The notes under the pieces are model-generated. The model was not told the DNA's origin. It worked only from the letters and a program-made list of their open reading frames with translations, and did not search any database. The position numbers and the translations under genes are program-made. Below are positions 15,738 through 20,149 of a DNA stretch of 20,149 bases, piece after piece (position 1 is the first letter of the stretch; each line of letters begins with the position of its first letter). This DNA comes from a virus. Location of the stretch: positions 1-20,149 of the IMG/VR virus record IMGVR_UViG_3300025771_000263. One strand, given 5' to 3'.

Positions 15738-16544
15738 ATGGATTTACACACTCATAAACTACTAACACCTATTATAACATTAAATTTTAAAGAACGCAGT
15801 CTTTTGTTTGCCGAATTGGCATCAATTGCGTATTTAGACGAAAAAAATGCAACCAAATTAGCAAAACAGTTAGGATTTACAACTGTAGAATATTATGAAC
15901 TGGATGGTGCTCAAGCATATCGTTTCATGAATAAAACAGATTTTGTAATTGCCTGCAGAGGAACAGAACCAAAAGAATTTAATGATATAGGTGCTGACGC
16001 AAACGCTATACCAGTAATTGCTGAAACGGTAGGTAGAGTGCATGGTGGCTTTAAAGGCGAAGTTGATAAACTATGGCCACGCATTGAAGAAGATCTTGCT
16101 CGTGAGTCTAAGGACAGAGATGTATGGTTCTGTGGACATTCGCTAGGAGCCGCTATGGCAACTATTGTAAGTTCACGTTGCAGAGGCAGTAATATTTGTC
16201 CTAATCCAAAGGAACTTTATACATATGGTTCACCTAGAGTGGGTTGGGCAAACTATATTAATCATCATCCTTTTGCTCATCACCGTTGGGTAAACAACAA
16301 TGATATTGTTACCCGTGTACCGCTTTGGATCATGGGATATAAACATCATGGAGAAGAACACTATCTTAACACATGGGGTAATGTTCGTGCATCTACAGGA
16401 TGGCAACGTTTTAAGGATCGCATGAGAGGTATGTGGCGTGGAATAAAACAAGGTAAAATTGACAACTTTTCTGATCACTCAATTGGATTGTATGTTGAAT
16501 ATCTACGCAACTATAGAGACGGTGTGGAGACTCCACAGGTTTGA
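15738..16544 (+). CDS. Class 3 (alpha/beta-hydrolase) lipase
   Basis: A 268-aa Lipase_3 family enzyme that hydrolyses ester bonds of acylglycerols or phospholipids. The nucleophile elbow is G-H-S135-L-G. The oxyanion region is C-R-G-T (73-76), and the family motif Y-G-S-P-R-V-G is at 163-169. Candidate triad partners are D189 (NNNDIVTRVP) and H247 (FSDHSIGLYVEY). No signal peptide is seen, so it would act in the cytoplasm or be released at lysis. The start has a strong AAAGGAG Shine-Dalgarno sequence. The downstream secreted 74-aa gene overlaps the stop codon (TTGA). Host membrane turnover, lysis or progeny release are possible roles. Confidence 0.93.
   Translation: MDLHTHKLLTPIITLNFKERSLLFAELASIAYLDEKNATKLAKQLGFTTVEYYELDGAQAYRFMNKTDFVIACRGTEPKEFNDIGADANAIPVIAETVGRVHGGFKGEVDKLWPRIEEDLARESKDRDVWFCGHSLGAAMATIVSSRCRGSNICPNPKELYTYGSPRVGWANYINHHPFAHHRWVNNNDIVTRVPLWIMGYKHHGEEHYLNTWGNVRASTGWQRFKDRMRGMWRGIKQGKIDNFSDHSIGLYVEYLRNYRDGVETPQV
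16523..16537 (+). promoter_or_regulatory. Hairpin over the ribosome site of the TTG-start gene
   Basis: TGTGGAG-A-CTCCACA is a perfect inverted repeat ending three bases before the TTG start. It buries the only Shine-Dalgarno-like GGAG. Ribosomes finishing the lipase would open it, which suggests translational coupling. Confidence 0.5.
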
Positions 16545-16999: not shown

Positions 17000-17006
17000 T
17001 ATTTAG
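17000..17006 (-). promoter_or_regulatory. Late promoter CTAAATA within the iscU stop
   Basis: The TAA inside the motif is the stop codon of iscU. It would serve the 50-aa gene starting at 16914. Confidence 0.5.
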
Positions 17007-17395
17007 TTCTTGCAACTACACTTTAACTCATAATCTTTTATGGCCGCTTTGATTGCATCTTCTGCTAGAACAGAGCAATGTATCTTTACGGGAGGTAAAG
17101 CGAGTTCTTTTGCAATATCAGTGTTCTTGATGTCTGTTGCCTCGTTAAGGGTCTTCCCTTTAAGTAATTCGGTGACCATACTAGAACTAGCGATAGCACT
17201 ACCGCAACCATATGTTTTAAACTTAGCATCTTCTATTATGCGTGTTTCTGGATTAACCTTTATCTGTAACTTCATTACATCACCGCAAGCCGGTGCCCCA
17301 ACCATACCAGTCCCAACGGATGGATCCGCTTTATCTAAACTACCGACATTTCTGGGATTCTCGTAGTGGTCAAGGACTTTATCTGAATAAGCCAT
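17003..17395 (-). CDS. iscU: Fe-S cluster assembly scaffold IscU
   Basis: A full-length (130 aa) IscU, the scaffold on which IscS-derived sulphur and iron are built into a [2Fe-2S] cluster. The start is ATG 17395, with AGGAG six bases upstream, giving MAYSDKVLDHYENPRNVGS as in bacterial IscU. Ligands are C37, D39, C64, H106 and C107. The L-P-P-V-K motif bound by the HscA chaperone is intact at 100-104. The C-terminus carries two extra cysteines (KCSCKN). No iscS, iscA or hscA lies in the window, so it would plug into the host Isc machinery. It has its own late-type promoter. A recent host origin is likely, since it is nearly canonical. Confidence 0.96.
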   Translation of the reverse strand: MAYSDKVLDHYENPRNVGSLDKADPSVGTGMVGAPACGDVMKLQIKVNPETRIIEDAKFKTYGCGSAIASSSMVTELLKGKTLNEATDIKNTDIAKELALPPVKIHCSVLAEDAIKAAIKDYELKCSCKN

Positions 17396-17420
17396 TGCCA
17401 ACTCCTAATATTATATAAAA

Positions 17421-19194: not shown

Positions 19195-19428
19195 TTACTT
19201 GCGATTGTAGATTGAATATAGTACCCATACAGCAACAAGACCAACTAATCCTTGTGCAGAAAAACCTGCAACAATATTTTGGATATTACCGATAATGTTG
19301 ATGTTTGGCCAGAACGGAATGTTCTGTCCGTTGAACAAGACTTCAAGAACAATACCCAACGATAACAGGCTAACTCCTGCTTCTGTTAGGGCACCTGCCC
19401 AAGCCTTTACTTTGTTTAAGATTTCCAT
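19195..19428 (-). CDS. Small membrane protein with two spans, 77 aa
   Basis: ATG 19428 has AGGAG seven bases upstream; a TTG frame to 19464 would swallow that site. The N-terminal helix MEILNKVKAWAGALTEAG is followed by span 1 (about 19-33, VSLLSLGIVLEVLF), a loop FNGQNIPFWPNINIIGN and span 2 (about 57-73, GLVGLVAVWVLYSIYN). It is holin-sized, but no family is named. It has its own late-type promoter at 19474-19480 and ends at the hairpin at 19131-19164. Confidence 0.78.
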   Translation of the reverse strand: MEILNKVKAWAGALTEAGVSLLSLGIVLEVLFNGQNIPFWPNINIIGNIQNIVAGFSAQGLVGLVAVWVLYSIYNRK

Positions 19429-19473
19429 AATGGATCTCCTTTCTCTTAGTGCTGATTTATTCAACCAGCGTTT

Positions 19474-19529: not shown

Positions 19530-19545
19530 ATTAATGATTTTCACT
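19530..19545 (+). repeat. 16-bp leader repeat, copy 2 (pqqA leader)
   Basis: It is identical to 18176-18191. Here it runs into CACTATAGA, which makes TAAT(N10)CACTATAG-like similarity to T7-class phage promoters. No such polymerase is seen in the window. Confidence 0.7.
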
Positions 19546-19569
19546 ATAGACTTTCTTTAATATGTGTGT

Positions 19570-19576
19570 TTAAATA
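19570..19576 (+). promoter_or_regulatory. Possible late-type promoter TTAAATA of pqqA
   Basis: The same heptamer as at 18044-18050. It predicts a start near 19582 and a leader of about 79 bases containing CAAGT-GGG-ACTTG. Confidence 0.35.
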
Positions 19577-19660
19577 GTAATGTAGACTCAAGTGGGACTT
19601 GTATTTTTACTCACCCATGAACTGGATACATTTTGTAAATCTAACTAAAGGAGAAACATT

Positions 19661-19732
19661 ATGTGGACAAAACCTACATTTACCGAAATGAGATTCGGAT
19701 TTGAAGTCACAATGTATGTGATGAACAAGTAA
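19661..19732 (+). CDS. pqqA: PqqA, peptide precursor of pyrroloquinoline quinone
   Basis: A complete 23-aa PqqA. It starts MWTKPTFTEMRFGFEVTMY and ends VMNK. E15 and Y19 form the E-x-x-x-Y motif that PqqE cross-links to build PQQ, the cofactor of methanol and glucose dehydrogenases. The conserved W-x-K-P and G-F-E-V-T-M-Y blocks match classical bacterial PqqA almost residue for residue, with normal length. AAAGGAG lies seven bases before the ATG, and a UUCG-loop terminator begins six bases after the stop, so it is a dedicated monocistronic gene. No pqqB, C, D or E is in the window; the host must supply them. I regard this as an auxiliary metabolic gene. Confidence 0.95.
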   Translation: MWTKPTFTEMRFGFEVTMYVMNK

Positions 19733-19737
19733 CAAAT

Positions 19738-19762
19738 AGGGCCTTCGGGCCCTTTCTTTTTG
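19738..19762 (+). terminator. Terminator of pqqA
   Basis: AGGGCC-TTCG-GGCCCT, a 6-bp stem with a UUCG tetraloop, followed by TTCTTTTT. Confidence 0.9.
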
Positions 19763-19776
19763 GCTCAAATACCCGG

Positions 19777-19805
19777 TTGACAAACATAAATAACTCTGTT
19801 ATATT
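19777..19805 (+). promoter_or_regulatory. Sigma-70 promoter of the 19860 gene
   Basis: TTGACA (19777-19782), 17-base spacer, TATATT (19800-19805). Two direct repeats of GTTATATTAGTA (19798-19809, 19812-19823) overlap the -10 and start region and may be an operator. Confidence 0.8.
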
Positions 19806-19859
19806 AGTAGAGTTATATTAGTATAACACGACACATTAACACACACAGAAGGAGAAAAC

Positions 19860-20149
19860 ATGATGTCAATGAAACAAATCGAAGAATCAGCAAAGCAAGG
19901 CGCTGAATACGTTCAAAGTAAAGTCAAAGAAGCATTGCCAAAAGTATCGTTCAACAAGAACGGTTATGAAATCCGTACACAAGTATTGGATATGGCAAAA
20001 CAATTCACTGAGTTCGAACATTCACAAAAATGGATGGGTTGGGAAATCACACAGAAGCGTGATGAAAAAACTGGTGAGATTGTTTCTAAAGTAGGTATGC
20101 CAGAAGTACCAGGTGTAGACCATGTACTTGAGTATGCTGAAAAGTTCTA
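19860..20149 (+). CDS. Conserved phage protein of unknown function, 3' end outside window
   Basis: At least 96 codons, open to the window end. The start is ATG 19860 with GAAGGAG upstream (a second ATG follows at once, giving MMSMKQIEESAKQGAEYVQ). The first 30 residues are an amphipathic helix. The next part contains QVLDMAKQFTEFEHSQKWMG and WEITQKRDEKTGEIVSKVGM. I recall similar aromatic/charged short proteins in T4-like marine phages without known function. The strong sigma-70 promoter suggests early, abundant expression. Confidence 0.82.
   Translation, partial: MMSMKQIEESAKQGAEYVQSKVKEALPKVSFNKNGYEIRTQVLDMAKQFTEFEHSQKWMGWEITQKRDEKTGEIVSKVGMPEVPGVDHVLEYAEKF

Follow-up and report, generated by a model that had tools for sequence, protein, structure and literature searches.

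The window analysed here, a stretch of 20,149 nt that makes up one entire IMG/VR virus record (IMGVR_UViG_3300025771_000263), probably carries a self-contained, host-derived pqqA cassette with which a T4-like phage supplies the PQQ pathway of its host under host-type control. Phage pqqA itself is already known; what is new is its extent and its control system. The unexpected result is that this putative control system is conserved between phage and host and includes an uncatalogued structured RNA. A preliminary description had placed the cassette at 19530-19762, which matches its edges almost exactly. The parts of the cassette and its neighbours, together with one related locus, are as follows.

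19195-19464, minus strand: left neighbour ORF, identified by synteny and conserved in relatives whether or not these carry pqqA
19531-19547, plus strand: operator-like near-palindrome TTAATGATTTTCACTAT, 130 bp 5' of the ATG (EM motif, 13.4 bits)
19569-19576, plus strand: TTTAAATA, directly 5' of the leader, recognized by eye as a possible -10 region or T4-like late promoter
19581-19628, plus strand: conserved structured leader RNA (model R1, 49.6 bits; family covariation)
19587-19592, plus strand: leader CUCAAG, part of the structured RNA
19593-19597 with 19613-19617, plus strand: leader helix P1, outer 4 bp paired, inner A-A
19601-19603 with 19608-19610, plus strand: leader helix P2, part of the structured RNA
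19619-19624, plus strand: leader GAACUG, part of the structured RNA
19647-19653, plus strand: Shine-Dalgarno sequence AAAGGAG, read from the sequence
19661-19732, plus strand: pqqA, 23 amino acids (E15 codon 19703-19705, Y19 codon 19715-19717)
19738-19762, plus strand: intrinsic terminator AGGGCC-TTCG-GGCCCT (hairpin 19738-19753) followed by a T-rich tail, from a terminator scan
19777-19805: the right neighbour's own promoter, TTGACA-17-TATATT, from a promoter scan
19860-20147, plus strand: right neighbour ORF, running off the contig end, identified by synteny and conserved in relatives
L437:12397-12720, plus strand: intron-split pqqA of a related phage contig, also found in L386, L390, L416 and L430

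The ORF at 19661-19732 translates to MWTKPTFTEMRFGFEVTMYVMNK. Pfam PF08042 scores it at 44.6 bits (cut-off 21.1) with all 19 positions covered, and the equivalog model NCBIfam TIGR02107 at 46.9 bits (cut-off 20), which confirms that the 23-codon ORF is PqqA with E15 and Y19, as the preliminary description had proposed. A search of the whole record returns this ORF as the single match (E 2.7e-12), and the same search of 14 control genomes returns none. The Glu and Tyr that are cross-linked in PqqA, three residues apart, are present as E15 and Y19. The peptide resembles bacterial PqqA in length, in these two residues, in its GFEVTMY core and in its membership of the curated-model families; unlike bacterial pqqA, the gene is phage-borne and stand-alone, with pqqBCDE absent nearby. 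The strong ribosome site and the UUCG terminator claimed earlier are found in the sequence, and the dedicated leader is not only real but a covarying RNA structure, which goes beyond the original claim.

Proteins encoded elsewhere in the window include NrdA, NrdB, glutaredoxin, IscU, a cold-shock protein, a class 3 lipase, a PD-(D/E)XK nuclease, a tail-fibre-like protein and a head protein. A further protein of 411 amino acids is common to phage Melnitz (41%) and T4-like cyanophages, and related contigs show 82-98% identity in it and the same gene order as the window. Most related contigs retain the lipase gene (15738-16544, plus strand), with 69-91% identity. The IscU/NifU scaffold gene (17003-17401, minus strand; 187 bits) adjoins the cold-shock protein gene and is a possible Fe-S supply gene; its nearest genuine phage match is in Phage C48C1 (76%).

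pqqA is flanked by homologues of ORFs 19195-19464 and 19860 in L252 and L272/L274, and adjoins whichever of these homologues is contained in L250, L266 and L328. Eight related T4-like contigs (L251, L279, L254, L255, L256, L258, L271 and L275) have the same two neighbours adjacent to each other without pqqA, and no PqqA was found elsewhere in these eight records, of which L251 spans 109 kb and most are fragments. Thus, pqqA is dispensable, and the cassette is a clean accessory element in phage DNA. Synteny and the empty sites place a host-like metabolic gene between phage genes, the arrangement expected of an auxiliary metabolic gene. A distance of 417 bp between the ORF and the contig end and a resemblance to host PqqA would be expected of host DNA at that end, a possibility noted in the preliminary description, or of an assembly chimera. 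Such an origin is nonetheless extremely improbable: related phage contigs have both flanking genes at the corresponding position, and pqqA is also present in complete isolate phage genomes. Host contamination is ruled out on these two grounds.

A scan of IMG/VR with a degenerate DNA pattern for GFEVTMY finds pqqA in at least 120 stretches, and among the matches listed all lie within PqqA-like ORFs. The GenBank phage collection adds nine isolate records of Methylophilales/Methylophilaceae phages (Venkman, P19250A, MEP301, MEP401, MEP402 and four of Melnitz), and a Manatee Spring podophage is the tenth genuine phage record with pqqA; other named Methylophilales phages in the taxonomy are absent from the matches, and universality is not claimed. 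None of these ten records annotates the gene as pqqA (no feature in five, 'hypothetical protein' in the other five), in line with the expectation that gene callers would miss so short a gene. Both 'hypothetical protein' features that were opened are antisense to pqqA. Melnitz gene 152 (MZ577097.1:76100-76195) and UOF77531 (MW202481.1:2067-2195), which overlap pqqA in antisense, are probably spurious. Matches labelled 'Acinetobacter phage MD-2021a' (CAKLQF020000010.1, CAKLQH020000055.1) were excluded as bacterial chromosome; the one such record opened contains a pqq operon, ppk and fur. Five viral contigs (L004, L013, L018, L024 and L028) carry PqqA variants of non-Methylophilaceae type and may represent other hosts or mis-sorted contigs.

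The preliminary description knew of no described phage pqqA, which proved incorrect: from Lake Baikal, Coutinho et al. 2020 (PMC7678222) described PqqA in a T4-like virus of Methylophilaceae whose population also has methanol dehydrogenase, and a 2026 paper (PMC13188868) lists viral pqqA. Isolate-phage papers in the literature searched do not mention the gene. PqqA and methanol dehydrogenase are described there for the Baikal Methylophilaceae viruses VP_266 and VP_139; the phage studied here shares with them a T4-like virus of methylotrophs that encodes PqqA, and contig L043 of the present set likewise pairs pqqA with a PQQ alcohol dehydrogenase. PMC7678222 gives no account of the operator, the leader RNA or the introns, nor of how far the gene extends among isolate phages.

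Phage pqqA is under purifying selection. In a sample of sequences found by the leader pattern, in which the coding sequence was unconstrained, E15 and Y19 are both retained in 55 of 56, so that the preliminary expectation of homologues keeping both residues holds; the single exception (MRAAW...) is most likely a non-PqqA reading caught by the leader pattern. The dN/dS ratio in this sample is about 0.12, a rough value with synonymous sites near saturation, and is 0.18 in another set when measured outside the search pattern. In five related phage contigs (L437, L386, L390, L416 and L430) the pqqA ORF is split by an insertion of 231-278 nt that follows GG(A/G)U. The group I intron model RF00028 scores 84.9 bits in L437, 65.5 in L386 and 65.3 in L416, against a gathering score of 50, and excision from the U to the terminal G rejoins the exons in frame to an exact PqqA at all five loci. 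Introns that would be removed in frame from within a 23-codon gene agree with a gene that is translated and functional. In L386, an HNH/NUMOD3 homing-endonuclease-like ORF lies directly downstream of the intron-bearing pqqA.

The best reading of its likely role is that phage PqqA would add to the substrate available to the PQQ pathway of the host, because PqqE is found in hosts and is absent from the phages, and because selection is purifying. PqqE scores above cut-off in 14 of 16 host genomes, which answers, for PqqE, the preliminary suggestion to check hosts for pqqBCDE, and in none of 28 phage records. Methylophilaceae have 3-12 pqqA copies and usually one pqqBCDE set (PMC4109929); M. mobilis 13 has 12 copies. 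Such an excess of pqqA over pqqBCDE points to an effect of peptide dose in these hosts. Extra copies had been proposed to sustain methanol or sugar oxidation; the Methylophilaceae signature MRFGFEVTMYVMNK in the window peptide points to methanol and does not favour sugar. A 72-kb phage contig (L043/G946) carries pqqA with its leader as well as a PQQ alcohol dehydrogenase gene (608 bits, G946:34049-35731), the only PQQ dehydrogenase found in 55 pqqA phage records; the other 54, the window included, are without one.

A phage peptide could also act as a decoy that occupies PqqD/PqqE, lowers host PQQ and redirects metabolism or hinders competing phages. In favour of this, positions 4, 6-8 and 20-21 vary more in phage PqqA than in its host counterpart, and the phages carry none of the other PQQ enzymes tested. 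However, E15 and Y19, the residues cross-linked by PqqE, are retained, although a decoy would be free to lose them, and in many cases the phage peptide and host PqqA have the same sequence. Because the reactive residues are retained, a decoy is unlikely, and less likely than the supply of extra substrate. Host-derived auxiliary metabolic genes are known in phages, for example psbA in cyanophages, and some of those in cyanophages contain introns. Phage pqqA is likewise a host-derived gene for a limiting metabolic part; it differs from cyanophage psbA in encoding a ribosomally made cofactor precursor of 23 amino acids and in bringing a host-type regulatory RNA along.

Upstream of pqqA, an EM motif trained on 50 host pqqA upstream regions, with the phage regions kept outside training, converges on a 17-bp near-palindrome, CTAATGAnnnTCATTAG. 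It reaches 10 bits or more in 124 of the 135 host pqqA upstream regions, training regions included (1.0 expected from shuffles), and in 78 of 171 phage regions (2.3 expected). The window copy is thus an instance of the same motif that lies 5' of host pqqA genes. Its shape and its sharing between phage and host suggest that the motif is an operator. Operator scores are low in L004, L018, L024 and L028. The TTTAAATA element is conserved in L035, L252 and L272, its promoter class being unsupported by scans. T4 late promoters were rejected as a class across the window, where WATAAATA shows no enrichment.

The stretch from promoter to ribosome-binding site (RBS) contains a common leader consensus, YUCAAR-P1-AYYU-P2-YUC-P1'-YGANCUG, in many phage pqqA genes and at one locus in OM43-type hosts; in this consensus, near-invariant unpaired nucleotides surround covarying helices. 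P1 is represented by 20 sequence versions among 68 distinct cores, with pairing in 270 of 272 cells, whereas shuffles give 180.7±5.2. In a 46-sequence alignment (A2) the P1 covariation score is 0.770, against 0.245±0.026 in shuffled alignments (0 of 500 reaching the observed value), and falls to 0.173 or less when the helix is slid by 1-3 columns. P2 is supported as well, a scripted test giving 181 versus 121.6±5.0 in shuffles; it was omitted from the covariance model because the U-run 5' of it varies in length. The window is among the 46 training sequences of model R1, and independent support for its leader therefore comes from covariation rather than from its R1 score.

A scan of viral sequences for the leader pattern, with no pairing requirement imposed, yields 93 matches with P1 fully paired, 90 of which are followed by pqqA; of the remaining three, one runs off a contig end and the others, both A-rich, look like chance matches. 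None of the 17 matches with two pairs or fewer lies 5' of pqqA. In 1.68 Mb of viral loci all 16 R1 matches of at least 38 bits lie 5' of pqqA. Among 187 Methylophilaceae genomes, 23 contain exactly one R1 copy each, all of them genomes of 0.7-1.4 Mb, and in the 12 checked this copy invariably lies 5' of a tandem pqqA pair. Searches of 399 genomes of the order, 369 of the class and 398 of the phylum, with strict filters under which weak matches are lost, return only the known Methylophilaceae carriers. The tandem copies of OM43-type genomes (G001-G009 and 14 more Methylophilaceae, L461-L482) are about 200 bp apart; the first is a distinct paralogue (MWTQP..CNK/R), and the leader RNA lies 5' of the pair. 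Among viral contigs sampled by pqqA coding sequence, about 10% have the leader and about 90% are without it; thus, viral pqqA in itself does not require the leader. Rfam gives no match over the window leader, and over the leaders of phage and host loci nothing near the gathering score even at relaxed E-values. A weak preQ1-II match (23.1 versus 47 bits) at 19795-19862, downstream of pqqA, was dismissed as chance.

As a covarying conserved structure in a 5' leader, this RNA is a riboswitch candidate. It is conceivable, though tentative, that it forms a new riboswitch class which responds to PQQ or to an intermediate of its synthesis and thereby regulates the translation of pqqA in streamlined methylotrophs, and that phages carry the same sensor on their own pqqA. 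An interpretation with a nearly even chance is that the leader is a protein-binding or stability element, whether the target of a translational regulator, part of a PqqA-PqqD feedback or a 5' protective structure. The leader is short (about 48 nt), has few pairs and one target gene and is not known to bind a ligand. Its 3' part also varies among the 68 cores, with a hairpin 5' of the RBS in 26, pairing of the start codon in 21 and neither in 21, the window belonging to the last group. However, near-invariant unpaired nucleotides around covarying helices resemble small translational riboswitches, as does, in several OM43 leaders, a strand able to pair either with an upstream partner or with the start codon, as an on/off switch would. 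The 5' CUC was rejected as an anti-Shine-Dalgarno sequence, as it shows no consistent covariation with the RBS (GGAG in 54 of 68), and a second core pairing, CAAG/CUUG, is not conserved across sequences.

No PQQ-sensing riboswitch was found in the literature searched. Phage Melnitz has a glutamine riboswitch at its tmRNA (PMC9004378), likewise a structured cis-RNA in an OM43 phage; it belongs to another RNA family and gene, and Rfam glnA gives no match to the pqqA leader. Similarly, a c-di-GMP riboswitch lies 5' of pqqA in the methylotroph Methylophaga nitratireducenticrescens GP59 (PMC12530212), a class for which the phage and host pqqA loci studied here give no match.

The host of the window phage is most likely a streamlined OM43-type member of the Methylophilaceae, to judge from the peptide signature and the relatives of the phage; the phage peptides frequently have exactly the sequence of PqqA from Methylophilaceae hosts. 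In the infected cell, expression of the cassette would supply extra PqqA, which host PqqD, PqqE and later enzymes would modify and convert to PQQ, one peptide per cofactor. The added PQQ would keep PQQ-dependent methanol dehydrogenase yielding energy and C1 units. Transcription may be controlled by binding at the operator common with host pqqA genes, and translation by the leader RNA adjacent to the RBS, in the simplest case through riboswitch-like sensing of a ligand. If that ligand is PQQ, viral PqqA would be made when the cofactor is short. The leader is supported by covariation, lies outside Rfam and has one target gene in phage and host, so that the PQQ-sensing idea can be tested on a transcript of about 100 nt. 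A 72-base gene skipped by gene callers is widespread in phages of a methylotroph group that is abundant in the sea and in fresh water, and would link infection by these viruses to the oxidation of methanol; its host-type operator and leader RNA suggest that these phages borrow regulation as well as metabolism.
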